Source: a virus. Taken from it: DNA of 55,412 nucleotides. The notes below the pieces were generated by a model. It had not been told where the DNA came from and did not search any database. It was given only the letters and a program-made list of their open reading frames with translations. Shown in pieces: positions 12,028 to 40,834 of the stretch (the first letter of the stretch is position 1; each line of letters opens with the position of its first letter). Where the stretch lies: IMG/VR virus record IMGVR_UViG_3300030616_000028, positions 1-55,412 of that record. One strand, written 5' to 3'. A program made the translations under genes and the position numbers.

Positions 12028-12686
12028 GCCTCGCAAAGTCCAAACCGTTCCGCTCTCGTGCCTTCCTCCGCTTTTGCCACGAGTTCATGGCGCCAGCTCC
12101 GTGCTGCGTCTGCGAGCAGCGCCCGTGGGTACAGCTCCACCACTTCGGGGATGACGGAGGGAAGGGAATGAAGCCGAGCGACACGTCCTCGGCGCGGGTC
12201 TGCGTGGAGTGCCACAGCAAGTACGACCTGAAGCGGAGAGGCCTCATCAAGTCGGGGTACGAGGACGTGCTGGATCGCTTTCAGCACGACGCGCTCATCC
12301 TCCTTCGGGAGTACGTGCGGCACCTGGAGTCGTACAAGCGTAGGAGCCTACCCGCAGAGCGGTGCGGCGGGTGCGCGTTCTGTCGAGACGGTGAGTGCGA
12401 AGCGAAGCTCGAGCACGTCGAGCCACCGAACGAGTGCGCCCTCGATGAGCTGAACATCTGGCTCGTCACGGAGGCCCAAGGCCTCGGTCCAGATGAGCAG
12501 CGAGACTGGCTGCTATCCTGGTCCAACCGGCGCTCGGCCAACGTGCTCTCGTTCCTCGCGGAGCCGATGCTGGAGATCGCCACGGAGACGAGCGACGAGT
12601 CCTCGCGCTTCGTAGCCAAGCGCGCGCTGCGGACAGCGTGCCTGGGAGGGGCAGATGGGAAAGACGAAGATCGATTGGTGCGATGA
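12024..12686 (+). CDS. HNH-like (DUF968-type) putative nuclease
   Basis: I chose the GTG at 12024, which makes a GTGA overlap with the previous stop. An ATG at 12012 is equally in frame. The N-terminal part has CCVCEQRPWVQLHHFGDD, then SSARVCVECHSKYD: two CxxC pairs flanking an HH, the pattern of a DUF968/HNH-type fold. A further cysteine cluster (CGGCAFCRDGEC) follows near the middle. Phage members of this fold are thought to act as endonucleases or resolvases. The C-terminal helical region is not recognised. The 3' end overlaps the next gene by 32 bases. Confidence 0.5.
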   Translation: MSLAKSKPFRSRAFLRFCHEFMAPAPCCVCEQRPWVQLHHFGDDGGKGMKPSDTSSARVCVECHSKYDLKRRGLIKSGYEDVLDRFQHDALILLREYVRHLESYKRRSLPAERCGGCAFCRDGECEAKLEHVEPPNECALDELNIWLVTEAQGLGPDEQRDWLLSWSNRRSANVLSFLAEPMLEIATETSDESSRFVAKRALRTACLGGADGKDEDRLVR

Positions 12687-13545
12687 GAGCATCAACTTCA
12701 TAACCGGGTGCAAGCACGGGTGCGAGTTCTGCTACGCGAAGCGCACCGCAGAGCGAAACGCCCGCATGGGATCGAAGCGGTACGTCGACGCACAGGAGTA
12801 CGGAGGCCACCCGTTTCGGCCGACCTACCACCACGACATCATGGAGCGCGAGCTCGCTCGTCTCTCGCGTGCGACCAGGCCGCGCGTGGTCTTCATTGGG
12901 TCCATGTCGGACCCGGCGCAGAACGCCGACTGGATGTACCTCGACGGCACGGGGAGAGGAGGCGGGCACCAGCTCGCAGGATCGGTCTGGGTGCAGGAGA
13001 TGATCGCGGCGTTCGCGCGGAGGCTCCCGAAGCACACGTTCATTCTGCTGACGAAGGCCCCGAAGAACCTGATCTCGGGGTGGCCCAGCAACGTCGTCGT
13101 CGGGACCAGCGTCACGAGCAACATGGATGCCAGCCGCGTGATGGACCTCCGTGCCAGCGTGGTGAGGCCGCGGTACGACGAGGCGGGACAGATCATCGAG
13201 GGCAGTGAACCGAGGCCACCGTTGCTCTGCGCCAGCGTGGAGCCGCTGCTCGATCCCGACTTCGCTGAGGACACGTTCCTCGAGGGGTTGGACTGGGTGA
13301 TCGTCGGCGCTCAGACCGGTCCGAAGGCGAGGCTCGGACGCGTCACCGGCTGGGAGCGAGACGAGCATGGCGTGGCCCACGACAAGACCGCGGGGCAGTT
13401 TATCGCCGGCGCCGCGAAGCGGATCGTCGAGTGGTGCGCGCCGCGTGGTGTGCCGTGCTTCGTCAAGGAAAACCTGACCCGGATCGAGCCGGGCTACAAC
13501 TGGCCGCACCAATACCCAGCGGCTTTCGAAGGGAGAGGAAGATGA
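12655..13545 (+). CDS. phage Gp37/Gp68 family (DUF5131) protein, radical-SAM-like
   Basis: This 296-residue protein opens with TKIDWCDESINFITGCKHGC and continues EFCYAKR. C19, C23 and C26 form a C-x3-C-x2-C motif followed by Y-A, the signature of the Gp37/Gp68 family, which resembles radical SAM enzymes. Further family landmarks are VVFIGSMSDP, FILLTKAP, VGTSVTS, SVEPLL, DWVIVGAQTG and GVPCFVKE. The substrate is unknown in the family. The cluster motif suggests an iron-sulphur enzyme. It starts with GGGGCAG-ATG inside the end of the HNH-like gene. Confidence 0.85.
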   Translation: MGKTKIDWCDESINFITGCKHGCEFCYAKRTAERNARMGSKRYVDAQEYGGHPFRPTYHHDIMERELARLSRATRPRVVFIGSMSDPAQNADWMYLDGTGRGGGHQLAGSVWVQEMIAAFARRLPKHTFILLTKAPKNLISGWPSNVVVGTSVTSNMDASRVMDLRASVVRPRYDEAGQIIEGSEPRPPLLCASVEPLLDPDFAEDTFLEGLDWVIVGAQTGPKARLGRVTGWERDEHGVAHDKTAGQFIAGAAKRIVEWCAPRGVPCFVKENLTRIEPGYNWPHQYPAAFEGRGR

Positions 13546-17728: not shown

Positions 17729-18137
17729 AGGCATCTACCTCTCCGAGAAGCACGGGGTCAACCCGGCGATCCCTCGATGCTACTTCTGCTTGGAGCCGAA
17801 GAACGAGGTCGTGCTGGCCGGCCGCATGAAGGGCGACGTGGAGGCCCCGCGCGATGCCGTGTGGGACATGGAGCCGTGCGACCAGTGCGTCGAGTACATG
17901 GAGCAGGGGGTCATCCTCATCAGCGTGAACGAGTCGCAGACGACCGACCCTCGTAACCCCTACCGCACAGGAGGGTGGGTCGTCATCAAGGACGCGGCGA
18001 TCGAGAGGATGCTGGAGGAGGTCGCGGCGCGCGGGATCTTGGAGTCGCGGTTCGCCTTCGTTCCCGACCAGGTGTGGGACGCTCTCGGACTGCCGAGGGA
18101 CGGCGCGGTCGAGTCGGCCGCAGGGAGCGACCTATGA
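17721..18137 (+). CDS. conserved phage protein with zinc-ribbon cysteines
   Basis: 138 residues. The start MGKGIYLSEKHGVNPAIPRC followed by YFCLEPKNEV and DMEPCDQCVEYMEQGV (two CxxC pairs) matches a recurrent phage hypothetical family of unknown function. The C-terminal half (IERMLEEVAARGILESRFAF) is helical. It overlaps both neighbours by 4-8 bases. Confidence 0.6.
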   Translation: MGKGIYLSEKHGVNPAIPRCYFCLEPKNEVVLAGRMKGDVEAPRDAVWDMEPCDQCVEYMEQGVILISVNESQTTDPRNPYRTGGWVVIKDAAIERMLEEVAARGILESRFAFVPDQVWDALGLPRDGAVESAAGSDL

Positions 18138-18799
18138 CGCGGCGAGCCTTCGACAACTACTCGACCGATCCCGGCCTCGCGCGGTGGGCGATCCGCAACG
18201 CGATGCGGCTCGCGTCGATCCCCAGGCCGAGCGAGGCTACCATCCTCGAGCCGTGTTGCGGAGATAAGGCACCGTTCGCGACGGCGGGTCGCGAGCTCGG
18301 CCTGGCCGGCTGCGGCTACGATATTCGCGAGGTGGCGCCGCCCGTCGATAGCGGGGTGCTGTACGCCTCAACCTCCGTCGAGCGGTTCCGCGACGAGCTT
18401 TGGAGCGGCCAGCCGTTCGACATCATCGCGACGAACCCTCCCTTCAACATCGGGGAGTCCGTCATCCGTGAGTCGTTGGAGATGCTCGCGCCTCACGGGT
18501 GCGCTGGCTTCCTGACCAAGATGGCGTTCCTCTCGACGCAGAAGCGATCCGAGCTGTTCGTCGTGAGGCCCCCGTGCGAGGTCTGGATTCTCCGTGCGCG
18601 TCCTTCCTTCACGGGAGACGGCGGGACCGACGTCGCGCAGGAGTACGCCTTCACCTTCTGGTACGGGAGCGGAACCGACGCACAGCTCCAGGCTTTCGGC
18701 ACGCGCAAGACGCACCTGTACTGGCTCGACAACGGCAGGCTTATGACCTCGGGATCACGGAAGCGCGTGCGGGTCCAGAAGGGAGGCGAGAAGGAATGA
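18134..18799 (+). CDS. DNA N6-adenine methyltransferase-like
   Basis: 221 residues. Motif I is ILEPCCGDKAPFA (37-49), where LEPCCG takes the place of the usual D-x-F-x-G-x-G. Motif IV is ATNPPF (99-104), the N-P-P-F form specific to amino-methyltransferases acting on adenine (or glutamine). LYWLDNGRL near the C-terminus is of unknown role. No target-recognition domain is evident, so this is probably a stand-alone modifying enzyme, for example protection against host restriction. It overlaps both neighbours by ATGA. Confidence 0.7.
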   Translation: MTRRAFDNYSTDPGLARWAIRNAMRLASIPRPSEATILEPCCGDKAPFATAGRELGLAGCGYDIREVAPPVDSGVLYASTSVERFRDELWSGQPFDIIATNPPFNIGESVIRESLEMLAPHGCAGFLTKMAFLSTQKRSELFVVRPPCEVWILRARPSFTGDGGTDVAQEYAFTFWYGSGTDAQLQAFGTRKTHLYWLDNGRLMTSGSRKRVRVQKGGEKE

Positions 18800-19366: not shown

Positions 19367-19800
19367 GCAGGTCGAAGATCAAGAGGTCTGGTTCGCACAA
19401 GAAGAAGGTGCGCGGATACCGGCAGACCAGGAACGTCGACGCGTGGAACCGAGGGCAGTTACGCCGAACCATGCAGGAGCAGGCTCGCCGCCGTCGGTTG
19501 ACGAAATTGGATGGAGATACAGGTGAGGAGTACATCCTCGCACGACTCGCTCTCGCCGACAAGGAGCAGAGTGAGGAGTACAGGGCGGGGCTCGACGAGG
19601 CACTCGCTGACGTGCCCCAGGAGGCTGAGGAACAGGCGGAAGCCATCCGGGGATACCTCCAAGCCTGGGTCGACGAACGACGACTGGTGCCGATTCCATG
19701 CGGCCGTGGCGAGCGTCCGAGTTGCCGGGTCTATGAGGGGCGGGAGGAGAACCGGGTCGTCGTGATGCGCCAGGATGACCCCGACGCGGGGCCTCAGTGA
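19363..19800 (+). CDS. unknown basic protein, end of the rightward operon
   Basis: 145 residues. The first 45 are strongly basic ([20 protein letters not shown]), followed by an acidic helical middle. The last 7 bases overlap the end of the convergent minus-strand gene, so no terminator space exists between the two. No family recognised. Confidence 0.5.
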
Positions 19801-20768
19801 TCGTCGCACTCCCCGTTCGGGTACAGCCGCTCGCAGAAGTAGCGGACGGTGGCTTCCATCCCGTCTTCGAGGTCCGTGAGGGGAGACCACCCAAGGACTT
19901 CGCGAGCGCGAGAGATGTCCGGGCAACGCTTCCTCGGGTCATCCTGCGGGAGGGGATGCTCGACGACTTCGGAGGTCGTGCCGGTCAGCTCGATGACCAG
20001 GTCAACGAGATCACGGATGGTGCTCTCGCGCGGGTTACCGAGGTTGACCGGCCGGTGCGCGTCCTCTCCCTCGTACTCCATCAGCTCAATGAGTCCTCGC
20101 ACGAGGTCGTCGACGTAGCAGAAGGATCGCGTCTGGGAGCCGTCGCCGTAGATGGTGATCGGCTCGCCGCGGAGTGCCTGGACCGAGAAGTTGGAGACGA
20201 CCCGGCCGTCGTCGATGGCCATGCGCGGACCGTACGTGTTGAAGATACGCGCGATGCGGACCTCGACGCGGTTCTGCTGGCGGTAGTCCGTGAGCAGCGT
20301 CTCGGCGCACCGCTTCCCTTCGTCGTAGCAGGAGCGAGGGCCGACCGTGTTGACGTTCCCCCAATAGGCCTCGGGCTGCGGGTGCTCCGTCGGATCTCCG
20401 TAGACCTCCGACGTCGAGGCCTGAAGGATTCGAGCGCGTACCTGGCGAGCAAGCTCGAGCATGTTGTACACGCCGATCACGTTCGTCTGGATCGTCTTCA
20501 CGGGATTATACTGGTAGTGGACCGGGGAGGCGGGGCAGGCAAGGTTGTAGATCTGGTCAACGTCGATGATGAGCGGCTGGATGATGTCGTGCCGAATGAA
20601 CTCGAAGTGCGGGTCATCGAGGAGGTGCGCGATGTTCTCCCGACGCCCCGTGAACAGGTTGTCGACGCAGATGACCTCGGCCCCTCGTTCGAGCAACTGC
20701 TCGCAGAGATGGGAGCCAATGAAGCCCGCGCCGCCCGTGACCAGAATTCTCTTGCGCCCGTTTCCCAT
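19794..20768 (-). CDS. UDP-glucuronate decarboxylase (UDP-xylose synthase), extended SDR
   Basis: The 324-residue product has the NAD-binding GGAGFIG at 12-18 and the UXS signatures [20 protein letters not shown] (75-94), [10 protein letters not shown] (117-126) and [16 protein letters not shown] (143-158) with catalytic Y148 and K152, then [10 protein letters not shown] and [16 protein letters not shown]. This set distinguishes UDP-glucuronate decarboxylase from dTDP-glucose dehydratase. The enzyme makes UDP-xylose and CO2 from UDP-glucuronate. The start at 20768 follows AGGGTTCAC. A longer upstream frame exists but lacks a site and homologous sequence. It is the only minus-strand gene, with its own promoter, and looks bacterial in origin. 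Confidence 0.9.
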
Positions 20769-33683: not shown

Positions 33684-34522
33684 GAGATCTTGGGAGCATT
33701 GAGACAAGTTGCTCAGTCCGCGTCAGTATCCCCGTTCCGGGGAGCTTCGTCGGTTCTGGCCGGCGGCGCGGGCGCGGGGACTGAGGGAACTTGGGCGTGG
33801 TGTTACAGTACGGACAATTCCGTACAGTATCCCACTACGAGGGCGGTTCAGCGCGGCTCGGCGCTTTGGGCGCAGCGCGGTAGTGAGGGATCTTGAGGGC
33901 ATTGAGGACAGTGTTCCAGGTTGGCACAGTATCCCCGCGCTCGGGGGGCGTAGCGCGGCCTGGCCTCCTCGGACCCGTGCGGGGGTGGGGGATACTGAGG
34001 ACAGTGGGACAATACCCTCAGGTTGCTACAGTATCCCGCGGCTCGGGGGTCCTCCGGGGGCCTTCTCCTCCTGAATCAGCGGCGCGGTGTCGCGCACTGA
34101 GGGATCTTGAGCAGGGTGAACAAGGTGGCTCAATGGCCCACGCCGAGGGCGGTCCTCCGGGGGTGGCTCGCCGGGAACCTGGGAGGGACTGTCGGATCTT
34201 GAGGTCATTGAGACAATGCCTCCAGGTTGCTACAGTACCCGGCCCATCGCTCGCCTCGGCGCGGCCTGGCCTCCTCGGAGAGCGGAGGAAGTGCAGCGGA
34301 TTGAGGGAAACTGGACAGGGTGTACAGGCTGCGACAGTATCCCCCAAACCCGAGGACCCGAGAGGGCAGATTCTCCCCGAAGCCGCTCGGCGGGGTGAGG
34401 GACTGAGGGCCACTGTAGGGACTGTCTCAATGGTGACAGTCCGCGACAGGATCTTCCAGGGGCGCGAGGAGGCTCGTGGTTCGTCGGAGGGTCCGGGGGG
34501 ATAGCCCAGGGAGGGGCAGAGG
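33684..34522 (+). repeat. ~102-bp-period tandem array of eight units, apparently non-coding
   Basis: Each unit has a ~48-bp core resembling GGATCTTGAGG...TTGAGA-N17-TACAGTATCCC and a GC-rich ~54-bp remainder. The core starts at 33685, 33786, 33888, 33990, ~34102, 34194, ~34297 and ~34399. The CAGTATCCC tail or its counterpart lies at 33724, 33825, 33927, 34029, 34131, 34233, 34335 and 34447, exactly 102 bp apart from unit 2 to 7. In unit 6 the core is TTGAGA-N17-TACAGT with TGC before the -10, a good extended -10 promoter. CATTG-aga-CAATG (unit 6) and GTACGG-acaatt-CCGTAC (unit 2) are dyads. Unit spacers also resemble each other (CCTGGCCTCCTCGGA in units 3 and 6). A 203-codon frame with TTG start crosses units 3-8, giving degenerate 34-residue repeats with atypical codons. 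Confidence 0.75.
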
Positions 34523-35689
34523 GTGAACAACGAAGGAACAGCCTGCAGCGAGGCCCAGGCGAGGAACCAGGACGGGGTCATAGGCGAGGCCGAGCTACTC
34601 GACCGCCTTCGCTCGGCCAAGCGCGTCTTCCTCCTCGAGCCGCAGTACGGTCGGAAGTATCTGCCGCTGGGCCTGGCCAAGATCGCGACCTTCGTCAAGC
34701 AGAACGGCGGCCGGGTCTGGTTCGGGCGGAAGTACCTCGGCCCCCCGGTCGACCTCATCTGTGCCACCTCGCTGTTCACCTACGACTCCGCGAAGGTCCT
34801 CGCCTCGCTACGTAGCGCCGGCTCAGTAGCGAAGGACACGCCCATCATCGCGGGAGGGATCTACGCCTCGCTCATGTGGCGCCACCTCCTCTCAGAGATG
34901 GGCGACCGCGTCCTCGTCTTCCGAGGGTTCTCGAAGGTCCTCGACGAGCTCGTCCCCGACTACTCGTTGCGGTGGGGGATGGAGAAACCGTGGCCGTCGT
35001 TCTCGTTCACCTTCACGAGCCGCGGCTGCCCGAACCGCTGCGCGTACTGCGCCGTGTGGAGGATAGAGCAGGAGCCGTGGATCAACCCGCGCTGGCGCGA
35101 CCACATCCTACTCGAAAAGCCGTGCGCGATGATCTCCGACAACAACTTGAGCGCGGCTCCTCCCGAGCACCTGTACGCCGTGCTCGACTTCCTCGAGAAG
35201 ACGCAGCGGAAGGTGGTCTTCGACAACGGCTTCGACGTGAAGCACATCACCGACGAGATGGCCGCGCGCCTCGCACGTCTCCGCTTCGTCCGCACGGGGA
35301 TGAGGACAGCCTTCGACCGCATCGAGGAGGACGGCACATTTCAGATCGCAATCGAGCGGCTCATCGCCGCCGGCGTGAAGGCCTCCGACATCATGGTCTA
35401 CTCGCTGTTCAACTACCGCGACAAACCGCGCGAGGCGATGTACCGACTCAGCCAGATCCACCGCCTCGGCGCGAAGCCGTACCCGACGATGTACACCCCT
35501 CTCAACCAGAGTGCCCCACGGAGGGAGGAGCACCACGTTGGGAAGCACTGGACGTGGCCGCTCGTGCGGGCCTTCCGCGCGTACTGGCTGTTCGCGGGAG
35601 TCTACTCGAAGCACGACTTCGAGGAGTGGGCGAGAGGGCAGGACAAGATCGAACTGAGCGAGGAGGATTGGGCCGCATGGCACGCGTAA
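34523..35689 (+). CDS. radical SAM enzyme with cobalamin-binding-like N-terminus
   Basis: 388 residues from GTG 34523 behind GGGAGGGGC. C169, C173 and C176 in TSRGCPNRCAYCAVW form the C-x3-C-x2-C site for the 4Fe-4S cluster. DNNLSAAP and GMRTAFDRIEEDGTF are consistent with the following barrel strands. The N-terminal part (FLLEPQYGRKYLPLGLAKIA, VDLICATSLFTYDSAKVL, IIAGGIYASL) follows the B12-binding-type Rossmann pattern of many radical SAM methylthio- and methyltransferases. The substrate is unknown. It opens the block that leads to the ParB-like and TAGT-like genes. Confidence 0.8.
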   Translation: MNNEGTACSEAQARNQDGVIGEAELLDRLRSAKRVFLLEPQYGRKYLPLGLAKIATFVKQNGGRVWFGRKYLGPPVDLICATSLFTYDSAKVLASLRSAGSVAKDTPIIAGGIYASLMWRHLLSEMGDRVLVFRGFSKVLDELVPDYSLRWGMEKPWPSFSFTFTSRGCPNRCAYCAVWRIEQEPWINPRWRDHILLEKPCAMISDNNLSAAPPEHLYAVLDFLEKTQRKVVFDNGFDVKHITDEMAARLARLRFVRTGMRTAFDRIEEDGTFQIAIERLIAAGVKASDIMVYSLFNYRDKPREAMYRLSQIHRLGAKPYPTMYTPLNQSAPRREEHHVGKHWTWPLVRAFRAYWLFAGVYSKHDFEEWARGQDKIELSEEDWAAWHA

Positions 35690-36714
35690 AGCAGGAGAGG
35701 ACCGAGGCGAAGGTATGGGGGTACGGTGAGCCGCCGAAGCCGCCGAAGATCATCAACCCGATAGGGCCGACCTCGCCGTGGGTATGGGCTATCGAACCGA
35801 CGCACGGGTGCAACCTGCGCTGCGGTCACTGTAGCTGCCGACTCGACCCGTTGCCGAAGCAGTACCACTTCATGGACGAGGCGACGTGGGAGGCGACCTG
35901 GAAGATCATCGCGGCGCTCTGCCCGACGCGCCGTGTTGACCTCGTGCTCGGCGGTGAGCCTACTCTCCACCCGGGCCTCCCCGAGTTCTTGTCCGTAGCG
36001 CGGGAGATCTCCCCGCTCTCGCAGATTCAGATCACGACCAACGGAACGCAGATCCTCAAGGGGCGGTGGACCTATCGCCAGCTCATCGAGGCCGGGGCCA
36101 ACATCGTCTACACGGATATGTACGGCTCGCGGGAGAAGTACATCGCCCTCGCTCATGATGCGGGGTATCCGTTCTATGAATACTACGATGCGCCCGAGGG
36201 TGCCTGGTCGCCGTGGACCTATCACGGGCCGCGCCTCAAGATGGTCGTCCTCCAAGAGCAACCGGAGAACTGGCCCGAGAGCCGCTTCCGCGCGGGGCTG
36301 ATGGGCACGTGGTACAACCACCTCGATTGGGAAGCCGCAGCACGCTTCGGACTCAAGGAGGTTACGAAGCCGCCCGCGCGCCGCTGCAACCAGCCGTTCC
36401 TCTACGTCCCGGTCGACTCGCGGGGTCGCTACCTGCTGTGCTGCCAGGACAACACGGGGGAGTCGACGAAGGAGAACTTCGGCACGGTCCACGACGGCCT
36501 CGACGGGTTCAAGCGGTACTGGTACGGAGACACGATGCAAGCGGTACGGCGCCGCCTGCGGGAGAAAGACCGGGAGAATGCATCGGACTACTGCCGGCGC
36601 TGCTGCGTCACGTTCTCGCGGTGCGACTTCAAGCACTGGAAGGACGAGGAAGTGAACCACGTCTGGGACGGCGAGAAGTGGACTCGGGTCAGCGACAAGA
36701 AGGGAGCGGAGTAG
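35677..36714 (+). CDS. radical SAM enzyme with SPASM-like C-terminal domain
   Basis: 345 residues; ATG overlaps the previous gene by 13 bases. IEPTHGCNLRCGHCSC places C45, C49 and C52 in the radical SAM motif. GGEPTLHPGL is the G-G-E-P SAM-binding element and ITTNGTQIL the next strand. The C-terminal region has RRCNQPF, LLCCQDNTG and YCRRCCVTFSRCDF, a SPASM/Twitch-like auxiliary-cluster domain. Such enzymes modify peptides or small substrates. Being adjacent to another radical SAM enzyme it probably acts in the same pathway. Confidence 0.85.
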   Translation: MARVKQERTEAKVWGYGEPPKPPKIINPIGPTSPWVWAIEPTHGCNLRCGHCSCRLDPLPKQYHFMDEATWEATWKIIAALCPTRRVDLVLGGEPTLHPGLPEFLSVAREISPLSQIQITTNGTQILKGRWTYRQLIEAGANIVYTDMYGSREKYIALAHDAGYPFYEYYDAPEGAWSPWTYHGPRLKMVVLQEQPENWPESRFRAGLMGTWYNHLDWEAAARFGLKEVTKPPARRCNQPFLYVPVDSRGRYLLCCQDNTGESTKENFGTVHDGLDGFKRYWYGDTMQAVRRRLREKDRENASDYCRRCCVTFSRCDFKHWKDEEVNHVWDGEKWTRVSDKKGAE

Positions 36715-37529
36715 TGCCGAGGAACGACAGGCTGGAGTACGTCCAGCACGGTAGCGTACCGGGCAGGTTCAAGGCCATCGTCGGGAGGACGGGCAAGCCG
36801 GTTCTGACTAGCATGACGGTGTGCCGCTCGATACCTCTCCAGCACGGCGACGTCGTCGTCGACCTCGGGGCCTACGTCGGGCAGTACGCGCTCGCTGCGG
36901 CTCGCCTCCCCGTAAAGAAGGTGATCGCGTACGAGCCGACACCGGACACCTACCGCATCCTGGCTGAGTCAGCGCAGCCGAACCTCGAGGTCGTCAACGC
37001 GGCGGTGGTAGCCGACGAGCGCGAGTCGGTGGACTTCTACATCTCGGCCGGGATCGGCGTCTCGAACAGCGTGGTTCTCAAGCGCGGGAAGGAGAGGCGG
37101 GTGACCGTTCCCGCGGTGAGCTACGAGGAGGCGGTTCGCGGCGCGACCGTCGTGAAGATTGATGTCGAGGGAGCCGAGTACACCTACCCCATCGTCCAGC
37201 CATCGCTGCGTGCCATCATGATCGACTTCCACCCGATACGCGGGAGGAGGTGGGTCGAGCGGGCGCAAGAGATCATGTCCGAGATCGAAGCGGCAGGGTT
37301 CACCCCCGTCGTCGTCCCCAAGTTCAAGAGTGGGTTCGACTCGGACACGGCGGCGAGCTTCGTGCGGGACCTCCCCGTTGAGGGAGGGTTCGAACCCATG
37401 ATGAGCGGCGAGATGTGCTGCGGCTGCGGAGCAGAGATCCGTGGCGATGGACGCTCGCTCTGCTCGTCGTGTTGGGAGTTGTGGTCGAAGAAGCACCGCG
37501 AGGGATTCACCCTTGCGTCGGAGAAGTAA
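36714..37529 (+). CDS. FkbM-family methyltransferase with C-terminal zinc ribbon
   Basis: 271 residues from GTG 36714, sharing one base with the previous stop. DVVVDLGAYVGQYALAAARL (about 43-62) is SAM motif I, IAYEPTPDTYRIL is motif II, and VVKIDVEGAEY is the FkbM signature. The last ~45 residues add CCGCGAEIRGDGRSLCSSCW, a zinc ribbon not typical of the family. FkbM enzymes methylate hydroxyls, often on sugars. In this block a modified base or sugar is a plausible acceptor. Confidence 0.85.
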   Translation: MPRNDRLEYVQHGSVPGRFKAIVGRTGKPVLTSMTVCRSIPLQHGDVVVDLGAYVGQYALAAARLPVKKVIAYEPTPDTYRILAESAQPNLEVVNAAVVADERESVDFYISAGIGVSNSVVLKRGKERRVTVPAVSYEEAVRGATVVKIDVEGAEYTYPIVQPSLRAIMIDFHPIRGRRWVERAQEIMSEIEAAGFTPVVVPKFKSGFDSDTAASFVRDLPVEGGFEPMMSGEMCCGCGAEIRGDGRSLCSSCWELWSKKHREGFTLASEK

Positions 37530-37534
37530 CCAGC

Positions 37535-37548
37535 ACGCCGCACGGCGT
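37535..37548. promoter_or_regulatory. perfect palindrome upstream of the ParB-like gene
   Basis: ACGCCG-CA-CGGCGT lies in the 41-bp gap between the FkbM and ParB-like genes, just before the ribosome site GGAAAGGAAAGG. It could be an operator or a hairpin tuning translation. Confidence 0.35.
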
Positions 37549-37570
37549 CGGGAAAGGAAAGGACAGGCAC

Positions 37571-38338
37571 ATGGCTCAGAGCAAGAAGACCCCCGAGGCG
37601 AGTGGGGTGAAAGTCTACTGCGCGCACGACAAGGTCGTCGACATCACGACCATCGTCCCGAACCCCCGGAACCCCAACAAGCACCCCGACAACCAGATCG
37701 AGCTGCTCGCCAAGATCATCATGAACCAGGGCTGGCGGAATGCGATCACGGTGTCGACTCGCTCGGGCTTTATCGTTCGCGGTCACGGTCGCTACGAGGC
37801 CGCGAAGCAGATGCAGGTCGACGAGGTTCCCATCGACTTCCAGGACTACGCCTCGGACGCCGAGGAGTGGGCCGACCTCATCGCGGACAACCGCATCGCG
37901 GAGCTATCGAAGATGGACAGCGCCGGCCTCAAGGATCTGCTCAACGAGATCGACACGGGCGACTTCGACATGGACCTCACGGGGTTCGACCACAACTCGC
38001 TCGAGAACCTGATGACGCACGACGGCTACTTCGACGCGAACGACCCCGACGCCGAGTGGGAGGGGATGCCCGAGTGGGGGCAGGAGGACACGCGGCCGCA
38101 CCGCTCGATCATCGTTCACCTGAAGGACGAGCAGGCCGTCGAGGATTTCAAGAAGCTCGTCGGGCAGGACTTCTCGGACGGGGCGAAGTGGATCTTCTGG
38201 CCCGACGTGGACATCGACCACGTGCGAGGAGAGCGGTGGGTGTCCGAGGACGAGTTGCCCGAGGACTACGATCCCGACGCGGAGGGCAGCGAGGAGGAGG
38301 AGGAAACGGCCGACGACGCGGACGACCAGGAGGAGTAG
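37571..38338 (+). CDS. ParB-like nuclease-fold protein
   Basis: 255 residues. ITTIVPNPRNPNKHPDNQIE and LLAKIIMNQGWRNAITVS, then GFIVRGHGRYEAAKQM, is the N-terminal ParB/Srx fold with the G-H-x-R motif. EWADLIADNRIAELSKMD follows. The rest differs from chromosomal ParB: no HTH is visible, and the C-terminus is very acidic (GSEEEEETADDADDQEE). In phages, stand-alone ParB-fold proteins beside terminases and modification genes are common, and this fold can bind CTP or act as a nuclease. The exact activity is unknown. Confidence 0.8.
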   Translation: MAQSKKTPEASGVKVYCAHDKVVDITTIVPNPRNPNKHPDNQIELLAKIIMNQGWRNAITVSTRSGFIVRGHGRYEAAKQMQVDEVPIDFQDYASDAEEWADLIADNRIAELSKMDSAGLKDLLNEIDTGDFDMDLTGFDHNSLENLMTHDGYFDANDPDAEWEGMPEWGQEDTRPHRSIIVHLKDEQAVEDFKKLVGQDFSDGAKWIFWPDVDIDHVRGERWVSEDELPEDYDPDAEGSEEEEETADDADDQEE

Positions 38339-38339
38339 C

Positions 38340-39221
38340 ATGCAGCCTCGCTTCCCGCTCTACATTCCATCGAAGGGACGGCACGAGTACCTCATCACAA
38401 TGAAGGCGCTCGACCGCATGCGCGTCCCCTATCGCGTCGTCGTCGAGCCGCAAGAGGCGGAGGCGTACGCGAAGGCACTCGGCGACGAGAGCAAGGTGCT
38501 CGTGCTCGACATGGAGTACAAGCGCACCTACAAAACGTGCGCTACCGACGGCGACCAGATGAGGACCGGCGCGGGCGCTGCACGGAACTTCATTTGGGAC
38601 CATGCGATCTCCGAAGGTCACGAGTGGCACTGGGTCATGGATGACAACATTCGGAAGTTCTACCGGACGTGGAAGAATCGCCAGGTCGCCCTCGGCGACG
38701 GCACGGGCTTCCGCTTGATGGAGGACTTCTGCCTTCGCTACGAGAACATCGCGATGGCTGGCCCAAACTACTTCATGTTCGTGCCTCGCAAGGTGAAGGT
38801 CGGCCCCGTCGTTTTCAACACGCGGATCTACTCGTGCAACCTCATTCGGAACGACGTCCCGTTCCGCTGGCGCGGGAGGTACAACGAGGACACGATCCTG
38901 TCGCTCGACATGCTGAAGGCGGGGTGGTGCACAGCGCAGTTCAACGCCTTCCTTCAGGAGAAGCTACGCACGCAGTTGGTGAAGGGCGGCAACACGGAGG
39001 AAATCTACGGCGGCGGCACGTTGCCCAAGTCGCAGATGTTGGTCGACCAGCACCCCGACGTCGCGCGCCTCCAGTGGAGGTTCGGGAGGCACCATCACTA
39101 CGTCGACTATCGGCCGTTCAAGAGGAACAAGCTGCGGCGGAAACCAGACGCGGAGATCCCCGAGGGGACGCACGACTACGGCATGCGTCTGGTGCCTCGG
39201 GAAGTAGCGGAGAATCGGTGA
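38340..39221 (+). CDS. TAGT/GREB1-like glycosyltransferase (TET-associated type)
   Basis: 293 residues. PLYIPSKGRHEYLITMKALD at the start, VVVEPQEAEAYAKAL, GAARNFIWDHA (R82, N83) and HWVMDDNIRKFYRT with D101-D102-N103 are the landmarks of the TAGT family: a GT-A-like fold with a D-D-N metal site. Members are found with TET/JBP oxygenases in phages and are predicted to glycosylate hydroxymethylated bases. No TET-like gene is visible in the window, so the acceptor base is open. It directly precedes terL with a 4-base overlap. Confidence 0.7.
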   Translation: MQPRFPLYIPSKGRHEYLITMKALDRMRVPYRVVVEPQEAEAYAKALGDESKVLVLDMEYKRTYKTCATDGDQMRTGAGAARNFIWDHAISEGHEWHWVMDDNIRKFYRTWKNRQVALGDGTGFRLMEDFCLRYENIAMAGPNYFMFVPRKVKVGPVVFNTRIYSCNLIRNDVPFRWRGRYNEDTILSLDMLKAGWCTAQFNAFLQEKLRTQLVKGGNTEEIYGGGTLPKSQMLVDQHPDVARLQWRFGRHHHYVDYRPFKRNKLRRKPDAEIPEGTHDYGMRLVPREVAENR

Positions 39222-40834
39222 ACGCGGTAGCCCAGGATGCGGAGGTCGCGCCGAGTCTTTCTCGGCAGTACGCGCCTCCTCGGGGACACCTCCCGAGGAT
39301 CACTCGGGCCTCGTACCTTGAGACCAAATCCCGTTCGAAGCTCATCGAGAGGGCCGAAGCACTACGAAGGCGGCAGATCGAGAAAGCGAGGGAGTCGGCG
39401 TCGGCGTTCATGGAGTACTGCTTCGTCGACGAGGCTGACGGCTCCCCGTACAAGCAGCAGTGGTTCCACGACGAGTGGCACCACGCCTGGGACCGCTACC
39501 AGCGCGTGATGGTCATCGCGCCTCGCGACCACGCGAAGACGAGCAACGTCGTCGGTCGGACCATCTGGGAGCTGGGGAACAATCCGAACCTCCGAGTCAA
39601 GATTGTCTGCGCCTCCGACGGCCGTGCGAAGGAGAGGCTGTTCGAAGTAGACCAGCACATCAGGACGAACCCCCGCGTCCTCGAAGTGTTCCCTCACCTC
39701 CTCCCCGATCCAGACGCACCGTGGAACGCACACCGCCTGGTCCTCCGGCGGACGGCGCGGCACAGAGACGCATCGGTCGAAGCTCTCGGTATCACCTCGA
39801 CGGCAACGGGCGGTCGTGCGGACCTCCTCATCGCGGACGACGTCGTGGACCGCCGCAACGCGCTGTCCTTCCCCGCGCTCCGTGAGCAGATCAAACAGGC
39901 GTGGCGATCGGACTGGACGAACCTCCTCGAGCCGGACTCCCGCGTCTGGTACATCTGCACACTTTGGTCGCCGTCGGACCTCTCGCACGAGCTGATGGAG
40001 AACAAGGCCTATCGGGTCCTTCGGTACGACATCGATGACGACTTCGGCTCCATCTGGCCGGCGAAGTGGAGCGAGTACCATCTCCGCATGCGGTACGAGG
40101 AGATTGGGAGCATCGAATTCAACCGCGCGTTCCGCAACCAGGCCATCGACACGGAGTCGGCGCTCGTGCAGCCAGAGTGGTTCGCCTTCGCGGACCTCCG
40201 CGAGGACAAGCGGTTCGCTGAGATCATCGAGAGCGAGGCGGCGATCTTCCTCACCTCCTACGACCCCGCGGGGACGCCGAACCCGAGGGCGAAGAAGAAC
40301 AACGACCAGGACTTCACGGGCGCTTGCATCGGCGCGGTAGACCGGGAGCAGGGGAACGTCTACATCGTCGACGCATGGCACGAGCGCATGAGCGTCAAGG
40401 CACTCGCGGACAGGATCTTTGCGGAGGCCCAAACCTACCAACCTTGGCAAGCTCTCATCGAGAAGGTGGGACTCGCAACGGTGGACGAGTGGGTCATAAA
40501 CGAGCACCCTGAGATGATGAGCCTCGTGAAGGTAACGAAGCCGCGTGTCTCGAAGCAGATGCGGCTCCTCGGCACGACCCCGTTGCTGGAGAAAGGCAAG
40601 ATCATTTTCTCCTCTCACCTTGACCCGAACGGGGAGCTGTTCGATGGGCGGCGCGGGTCCTTGGTGGACGAGCTGATTGAATTCCCGTTCGGGAAGCACG
40701 ACGACATGGTGGACGCGTTCTCTCAGATGATCGGTGCGGCCCGGGCGCACTTCCTTGACGTGGACGCTGACGGAGGTGAAGATGTACCAGAGATCCACTT
40801 CGGCGACGAGGGCGACGATGAGTACCCGTTCTGA
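39218..40834 (+). CDS. terL: terminase large subunit
   Basis: 538 residues from GTG 39218 (GTGA overlap). The ATPase half has VMVIAPRDHAKTSNV (Walker A variant, about 97-111) and ADLLIADDVVD (Walker B, about 201-211). The RNase H-like nuclease half has LTSYDPAGTPNP with the first metal-binding aspartate and GKHDDMVDAFSQ near 494 with the last. TerL cuts concatemeric DNA and drives packaging into the prohead. The long N-terminus (~80 residues before the ATPase) is polar. Packaging strategy cannot be deduced. Confidence 0.92.
   Translation: MNAVAQDAEVAPSLSRQYAPPRGHLPRITRASYLETKSRSKLIERAEALRRRQIEKARESASAFMEYCFVDEADGSPYKQQWFHDEWHHAWDRYQRVMVIAPRDHAKTSNVVGRTIWELGNNPNLRVKIVCASDGRAKERLFEVDQHIRTNPRVLEVFPHLLPDPDAPWNAHRLVLRRTARHRDASVEALGITSTATGGRADLLIADDVVDRRNALSFPALREQIKQAWRSDWTNLLEPDSRVWYICTLWSPSDLSHELMENKAYRVLRYDIDDDFGSIWPAKWSEYHLRMRYEEIGSIEFNRAFRNQAIDTESALVQPEWFAFADLREDKRFAEIIESEAAIFLTSYDPAGTPNPRAKKNNDQDFTGACIGAVDREQGNVYIVDAWHERMSVKALADRIFAEAQTYQPWQALIEKVGLATVDEWVINEHPEMMSLVKVTKPRVSKQMRLLGTTPLLEKGKIIFSSHLDPNGELFDGRRGSLVDELIEFPFGKHDDMVDAFSQMIGAARAHFLDVDADGGEDVPEIHFGDEGDDEYPF

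Follow-up and report, generated by a model that had tools for sequence, protein, structure and literature searches.

What do the five genes encoded immediately before the large terminase gene of this virus modify: its own DNA, a virion protein or a sugar of the host? The window, by which we mean the whole 55,412-base stretch analysed, is an IMG/VR contig in which the final ORF is open, so the record is probably a fragment. From 34523 to 40834 the gene order is RS1, RS2, FkbM, ParB, TAGT and TerL. The features considered here, placed in families by computation, are as follows.

34523-35689, plus strand: RS1, radical SAM protein (phrog_9298, 1.9e-34)
35677-36714, plus strand: RS2, radical SAM protein with a twitch/SPASM C-terminal domain, BtrN-like (PF04055, 2e-11; PF13186, 2e-4)
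36714-37529, plus strand: FkbM-family methyltransferase with a cysteine-rich (zinc-ribbon-like) C-terminal tail (TIGR01444, 7.5e-18)
37571-38338, plus strand: ParB-like protein (phrog_498, 7e-41)
38048-38245, plus strand, limits approximate: KTKSIWFP domain, C-terminal in ParB (alignment of ParB-type proteins; TAGT fusions)
38340-39221, plus strand: TAGT glycosyltransferase, GT-A fold, invariant DDN (PF20691, 2.7e-41; AF2 model)
39218-40834, plus strand: TerL, large terminase subunit, a landmark (phrog_38, 1.1e-74)
19794-20768, minus strand: UXS, UDP-glucuronate decarboxylase (UDP-xylose synthase), candidate donor enzyme (phmmer against PDB)

The original prediction described five adjacent, overlapping genes directly before terL. 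The coordinates hold, as does the placement, with TAGT overlapping TerL by 4 bases; overlaps of 13 bases (RS1/RS2) and 1 base (RS2/FkbM) are interrupted by short gaps of 41 bases ahead of ParB and 1 base ahead of TAGT. Its inventory of cluster families also stands; elsewhere in the window there is a sugar-nucleotide gene, UXS, which it did not list.

The predicted TAGT glycosyltransferase scored 142.2 bits against PF20691 (curated cut-off 27.5), and its acidic metal motif, D101 D102 N103, is invariant in 20 sequences. Its AF2 model (pLDDT 90.5) matches UDP-sugar GT-A enzymes, the best at VIA Z 14.0; no single relative stands out among the leading VIA matches (ties at Z 12-14), so the fold indicates a UDP-sugar GT-A enzyme and nothing narrower. 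The characterised TAGTs of T2 and T6 are too remote to give a tblastn match to it even at E 10, a point against the DNA reading. FkbM exceeds the cut-offs of both TIGR01444 (65.4 bits, cut-off 37.7) and PF05050 (6e-7), and the motif CCGC...CSSC is visible in its C-terminal tail, in agreement with the predicted methyltransferase carrying a zinc ribbon. For ParB the predicted fold is supported by phrog_498 and falls below the Pfam cut-off with PF02195 (2e-4; 21.8 bits, cut-off 26.3), the latter again counting against the model. No ParA was present among the scanned neighbouring genes, and a role in partition was set aside on this ground. The KTKSIWFP domain, named from its consensus in an alignment of ParB-type proteins, is a small C-terminal domain of ParB; phiAS5, POP12, PTm1 and L004 instead carry it as the N-terminal part of a TAGT fusion. 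Isolates that have a TAGT include Vibrio phage 1.124.O and Aeromonas phiAS5, and Lactobacillus phi jlb1 has a remoter one. ParB proteins with a small C-terminal domain adjoining TAGT are common among IMG/VR phages.

RS2 exceeds the cut-offs of the radical SAM and SPASM families and has its CX3CX2C motif at C45/C49/C52. The best match of its AF2 model (pLDDT 80.2) is BtrN (VIA Z 19.2, rmsd 3.2 over 233 of 246 residues), followed by SkfB (Z 13.8), SpeY (12.4), BlsE (11.6) and DesII (11.1). Identity to BtrN is 19% and RS2 lies below all NCBIfam cut-offs; in a HMMER alignment its cysteines 237, 255, 306 and 309 align with cysteines 169, 187, 232 and 235 of BtrN. RS2 shares predicted fold and auxiliary-cluster cysteines with BtrN (butirosin) and SpeY (spectinomycin), and differs from them in having additional conserved cysteines at 256 and 316. 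The substrates of BtrN and SpeY are small aminocyclitols of antibiotic pathways. As its closest match is an aminocyclitol alcohol dehydrogenase, sugar editing is likelier than base editing, and we consider RS2 more likely to be a sugar-tailoring than a base-tailoring enzyme. The original prediction, in which radical SAM and O-methylation steps would be new decorations, is amended in this respect, the sugar being the more likely site of RS2 action. SPASM enzymes also include peptide maturases such as SkfB, which counts against a sugar-tailoring cassette; a plain RiPP maturase is disfavoured by the linkage to TAGT and the BtrN fold.

For RS1, PF04055 (1e-3) and the B12-binding family PF02310 (2e-3) were both under the Pfam cut-off, the latter reflecting a weak B12-binding-like segment at the N-terminus (18.1 bits, cut-off 32.1), and TIGR04013 gave 21.8 bits against a cut-off of 251. 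Its CX3CX2C cysteines (C169/C173/C176) are invariant across four aligned relatives. With this motif in RS1 and RS2, and the SPASM domain in RS2, the prediction of two radical SAM enzymes, one of SPASM type, was upheld. A single-sequence scan returned no relatives of RS1, and the 4-sequence alignment returned 292 stretches, the best 80 of which gave 79 loci. RS1 relatives lie directly upstream of a C5-methyltransferase gene in L142 and L146, and of an N4/N6-methyltransferase gene in L143. Methyltransferase motifs were enriched beside RS1 (20 of 295 nearby genes as against 12 of 494 distant ones; p 0.004), in a motif-based count that takes in the near-identical loci L185-L188.

RS2 and TAGT occur together in 18 of 23 records, the window counted, and in all 14 of the records longer than 26 kb. 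TAGT was found within the retrieved locus for 16 of 23 RS2 loci (13 of 18 once near-identical loci were merged), compared with 1 of 79 loci of RS1, an unrelated query represented by the best 80 of its 292 stretches. For the viral loci the count was 15 of 22 (Fisher p 8e-12), among which related loci are not independent. RS2 is located between ParB and TAGT in L102, L103/L109 and L301. TAGT likewise adjoins all three relatives of FkbM (3/3 loci), and the two genes are also neighbours in L032 and L076. The neighbour scan covered 111 hand-picked proteins, mostly from 185 neighbour-family representatives, and its family counts are therefore not rates.

One close relative bears on the target. L141 is syntenic with the window (TerL 78%, RS1 60% and the N-terminal part of ParB 81% identical), and in this single locus a C5 cytosine DNA methylase (PF00145, 1.4e-70) occupies the slot that separates ParB from TerL, and ParB is without the KTKSIWFP domain. 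A DNA methyltransferase in the position of TAGT supports DNA as the target of the cluster, and the relatives, as read from their gene order, show a modular cassette. No degenerate repeats were found upstream of the operon in L140 or L141.

UXS matched UXS1 chains at 1e-122, the next best family reaching 4e-44, and shows 57% identity to the gene that opens a run in L221 with the order UXS-KTKSIWFP-FkbM-TAGT. It is plausible that it supplies UDP-xylose as the sugar donor for TAGT. UXS lies 14 kb from the operon on the opposite strand, and phages often carry such a gene in other settings, both of which were counted against this role; TAGT was present in 6 of 80 UXS loci versus 1 of 79 RS1 loci, a difference that was not significant (p 0.12).

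A profile search of the window that took in 68 further ORFs found no TET/JBP (PF12851), thymidylate-synthase-fold (PF00303) or C5-methyltransferase (PF00145) gene in what may be a fragment, consistent with the original prediction that no TET/JBP or hydroxymethylase gene is present. The same search found PF12851 in G014, a 306 kb RS2 record, at 5.6e-27, and PF00303 in five of six named phages. TET/JBP was absent in 16 of 17 other RS2 records tested, and the thymidylate-synthase-fold gene in all 18 tested, window included. The absence from the window of enzymes that would provide an acceptor hydroxyl counts against the cassette, as does the TET/JBP gene of G014; replacement of TET by RS2 alone was set aside as that record carries both. 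TAGT-only phages mostly lack these enzymes too (PF00303 in 1 of 16 IMG/VR records), making the missing source of the hydroxyl a problem of the whole TAGT group.

The most likely reading of these data is that the DNA is pentosylated and the sugar oxidised and O-methylated; the model in its entirety, an operon acting as a DNA-glycosylation cassette with both tailoring steps, we rate at about even chances. A UDP-sugar, plausibly UDP-xylose from UXS, would serve as donor. TAGT would dock on ParB via the KTKSIWFP domain and move the sugar onto a hydroxyl already present on phage DNA, either of a base or of an earlier sugar. RS2 would then oxidise a hydroxyl of the DNA-bound sugar, much as BtrN oxidises an aminocyclitol, and another hydroxyl of the same sugar would be O-methylated by FkbM. 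RS1 may carry out a further radical reaction, perhaps at the base. Modification would occur late, just before packaging by the terminase, and may protect the DNA from host nucleases. A more tentative version is an oxygen-independent hypermodification lacking TET/JBP and hydroxymethylase, in which the radical SAM enzymes prepare and edit a DNA-bound pentose to yield a keto, O-methylated sugar; this we regard as possible and distinctly less probable.

The cluster might instead glycosylate a capsid or tail protein, with FkbM and the radical SAM enzymes decorating that glycan. It adjoins structural genes, the nearest TAGT folds include protein glycosyltransferases (e.g. collagen galactosyltransferase and GalNAc-T), and the available text on cluster O mycobacteriophages suggests that their capsid is modified by an O-methyltransferase and glycosyltransferases encoded between the portal and protease genes (PMC4351075). 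We consider this unlikely given the cytosine methylase in the same slot of L141, the ParB-type proteins found with DNA modification enzymes in the portions available of PMC12783734, and the use of DNA-borne sugar by TAGTs studied so far, according to the accessible parts of PMC13216743 and PMC13390438. Similarly improbable is that RS1, RS2 or both act on the base, taking the place of TET/JBP without a need for oxygen and making the hydroxyl acceptor for TAGT. The scarcity of TET/JBP and absence of thymidylate-synthase-fold genes in RS2 records argue for it, as do the methyltransferase genes directly after RS1 relatives and the associated enrichment; however, TAGT phages without RS1 or RS2 also miss these enzymes, the best structural match of RS2 is a sugar-like alcohol dehydrogenase, and the enrichment is subject to the motif-based counting of near-identical loci noted above. 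FkbM, UXS and glycosyltransferases are frequent in polysaccharide pathways, and modification of a host cell-wall sugar or polysaccharide, for superinfection exclusion or receptor change, would account for them. This is very unlikely given the position directly before terL with a ParB partner, the exchange with a DNA methylase, and the families of the adjoining genes scanned, which included neither transporters nor membrane glycosyltransferases.

Operons of TET/JBP with TAGT were reportedly predicted by Iyer et al. in 2013, with TAGT accompanied by tailoring genes in phage operons; the window cluster has TAGT and tailoring genes but no TET/JBP. The TAGT of T2 and T6, which shares PF20691 with that of the window, adds glucose to glucosylated hmC, giving gentiobiosyl-hmC on a DNA-borne acceptor, as described in the available parts of two papers (PMC13216743, PMC13390438). 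T-even phages supply hmC with a hydroxymethylase and an alpha-glucosyltransferase, neither of which was found in the window. The original prediction of a DNA hypermodification pathway remains the best reading, strengthened by these TAGTs, the L141 exchange and the association of RS2 and FkbM with TAGT; DNA as the target we infer from context. Arabinosyl-cytosine of the Mosigvirus phages RB69 and NP likewise involves a pentose on phage DNA and sugar-nucleotide genes, with a UXS route discussed for RB69 (PMC6024577). In the sources as available, their hydroxyl comes from a 5-hydroxy-dCMP synthase of thymidylate-synthase fold, the transferase is proposed to be GT-B whereas TAGT is GT-A, and neither radical SAM nor FkbM, both present in the window, is reported. 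According to the accessible text, Shewanella phage Thanatos has a pentose-type decoration, deoxypentose-cytosine, and a UDP-xylose pyrophosphorylase (PMC12838424), but uses another glycosyltransferase and activating enzyme and has a hydroxymethylase-like gene. Carboxymethylcytosine formation by CmoX/CmoY, from the part of PMC12783734 available, also has a ParBc neighbour of the DNA-modifying enzyme and proceeds by C5-carboxymethylation and ligation, unlike the glycosylation predicted here; its 'SPPC' motif is also found in the L141 methylase. In the literature searched, mainly outside subscription journals, we found no keto and O-methylated DNA sugar chemistry and no paper on a phage cluster of radical SAM, TAGT and FkbM. 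Editing of a sugar on phage DNA by radical enzymes and a methyltransferase would probably be a new combination of parts known elsewhere.

If the model is correct, phages would also decorate their DNA by methylating sugars bound to it and oxidising them through radical chemistry, and the ParB-TAGT pair ahead of the terminase would be a general, swappable dock for base-modifying enzymes. RS2 would gain a testable function, and a very common, unstudied phage gene pair would be explained. Such modification would be relevant to escape from restriction and CRISPR, and would matter for the reading of metagenomes, in which heavily modified DNA can be under-sequenced.

Profile matches from Pfam, PHROGs and NCBIfam bore out the predicted families of the six operon genes (34523-40834), which lie where originally placed: two radical SAM proteins (RS1 and RS2), an FkbM methyltransferase, a ParB-like protein, a TAGT glycosyltransferase and the large terminase (TerL). 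The genes overlap or almost abut, and the series continues into terL. RS1 is a radical SAM protein (phrog_9298) with a weakly matching B12-binding-like segment; RS2 is a radical SAM protein with a SPASM match above the cut-off; FkbM matched TIGR01444 above the cut-off and TAGT matched PF20691 strongly above it; ParB had a PHROGs match of 7e-41 and a Pfam match under the cut-off. A third radical SAM-like gene, of the DUF5131 type (PF07505, 2.3e-24), lies away from the operon at 12655-13545. The IMG/VR record of 55,412 bases is the entire window, and the genome is probably incomplete because the final ORF is still open at the record end.

RS2 relatives were found at 22 viral loci, six of them from the initial scan, and on one contig of a Desulfosporosinus MAG. 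A TAGT gene lay within 16 of these 23 fetched loci (13/18 once near-identical loci were merged) and, when whole records were searched, in 18 of the 23 records, window counted; the five records without it are pieces of 4 to 25 kb, and all 14 records longer than 26 kb have it. As background, TAGT occurs in one of the 79 merged loci of the RS1 set (best 80 of 292 stretches), and that locus is related to the window. The RS2 gene is flanked by ParB and TAGT in L102, L103/L109 and L301. The converse association was absent: TAGT is common (at least 595 stretches), and RS2 accompanies it in one of the best 80 TAGT loci. The RS2 of the Desulfosporosinus RS2-TAGT locus is near-identical to that of viral locus L104, a hint of an anaerobe host for L104. 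FkbM relatives adjoin TAGT in 3/3 cases, and FkbM occurs in two more TAGT loci (L032 and L076).

An AlphaFold2 model of RS2 (17 sequences, mean pLDDT 80.2, pTM 0.84) was closest to BtrN, with a Foldseek value of 6.6e-10 and a VIA Z of 19.2 over 233 residues, far above SkfB (13.8). SpeY (12.4), BlsE (11.6) and DesII (11.1), which, going by their structure titles, are sugar, cyclitol or nucleoside-sugar enzymes, followed in the VIA ranking with peptide maturases interspersed among them. In the HMMER alignment, RS2 cysteines 237, 255, 306 and 309 align with BtrN cysteines 169, 187, 232 and 235, presumably the ligands of its auxiliary cluster. No NCBIfam family reached its cut-off with RS2, which therefore represents an unnamed subfamily. 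The TAGT model (20 sequences, pLDDT 90.5) has a GT-A fold; collagen galactosyltransferases and other UDP-sugar enzymes led the Foldseek matches, and the VIA rows were tied at Z 12-14. The predicted structure thus supports a UDP-sugar donor and nothing finer.

A gene that could bear on this donor lies elsewhere in the window:

19794-20768, minus strand: UDP-glucuronate decarboxylase (UXS; phmmer UXS1 1e-122, next family 4e-44)

In known organisms this enzyme produces UDP-xylose. Locus L221 carries, in order, a UXS gene 57% identical to that of the window, a KTKSIWFP domain, FkbM and TAGT. TAGT was present in six of 80 UXS loci, an excess over the RS1 set that is not significant (p 0.12); it is the next gene in L229, L233 and L240 and is separated by a single gene in L230 and L277 (L229, L230 and L233 are apparently close relatives of one another). 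In L301, UXS is divergent from ParB-RS2-TAGT. The ParB-TAGT neighbourhoods of L052 (1-3433) and L050 (6780-9420) contain a second glycosyltransferase-like and a cytidylyltransferase-like gene, with a sugar epimerase also in L052, which suggests different sugars in other phages.

The final third of ParB contains a small domain with a consensus of about K-T-K-x-I-W-F-P. It occurs alone (L006), at the ParB C-terminus (most TAGT loci) or fused N-terminal to TAGT (phiAS5, POP12, PTm1, L004 and L111), and this fusion pattern implies that the domain may physically serve TAGT. Among the best 80 TAGT loci, 73 matched the window ParB and 71 the ParB profile; the most frequent other neighbour in the clustered loci was a family that is terminase-like by eye (37 loci). 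In the isolate Lactobacillus phage phi jlb1 an annotated ParB adjoins a remote TAGT match (E 2e-3).

The nearest syntenic relatives are L140 (TerL 81%), with the order RS1-ParB-RS3-TAGT-TerL, in which RS3 is a third radical SAM protein, and L141 (TerL 78%), with the order RS1-ParB-X-TerL, where X, a C5 cytosine DNA methylase (PF00145, 1.4e-70), starts on the stop codon of ParB and ends on the start of TerL. ParB of L141 has no KTKSIWFP domain. One slot thus accommodates either TAGT or a DNA methylase, and the TAGT-specific domain is lost along with TAGT; although a single locus, this exchange is the strongest evidence here for DNA as the target, which we consider fairly likely. Methylase genes follow RS1 relatives in L142 and L146 (C5, the latter assigned by eye, without a profile scan) and L143 (N4/N6), and methyltransferase motifs are modestly enriched beside RS1 (20/295 near genes versus 12/494 far genes, p 0.004). 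That the cassette instead glycosylates protein seems unlikely; its main precedent is the methyltransferase/glycosyltransferase cluster of cluster O mycobacteriophages, for which capsid modification has been suggested (PMC4351075). RS3 itself (L096, 1333-2709; L140, 5558-6940) was seen only beside TAGT, in 2/2 loci, and its NCBIfam matches, under the cut-off, include DesII and BlsE. Immediately 5' of the window operon lie degenerate direct repeats (33686-34475; period ~102 bp, 62-77% alike), with none at the corresponding position in L140 and L141.

The original gene inventory, which had overlooked UXS, listed no TET/JBP or hydroxymethylase gene; neither targeted searches nor a Pfam scan of 68 additional window ORFs (batches of 24, 26 and 18) detected a gene for a TET/JBP, thymidylate-synthase-fold or C5-methyltransferase protein. 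A DNA methyltransferase-like gene at 18134-18799 (phrog_799, 5.7e-22; NPPF motif) possibly encodes an amino-methyltransferase. Among 40 records, TET/JBP (PF12851) was above the cut-off in one, the 306 kb RS2 record G014, with one weak match in G024; PF00303 was found in six, five of them named phages of at least 107 kb, and PF00145 in five. Fifteen additional records had neither PF00303 nor PF12851 (0/15 each). Most TAGT phages of 20-70 kb, with or without RS2, lack every tested known hydroxyl source. Single absences mean little because many records are fragments; the pattern over many records is harder to dismiss.

In published work, the TAGT of T2/T6 adds glucose onto glucosylated hmC (PMC13216743, PMC13390438), Mosigvirus arabinosylates 5-hydroxy-dC (PMC13390438), Thanatos cytosine bears a deoxypentose (PMC12838424) and carboxymethylcytosine enzymes are accompanied by ParBc proteins (PMC12783734). 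No description of a TAGT with a tailoring set such as this was found in the literature searched. On the likeliest reading, to which we give even chances, the cassette would glycosylate phage DNA with a pentose that is afterwards oxidised and methylated, and would be a hypermodification cassette of the known TAGT type, differing by its tailoring set.
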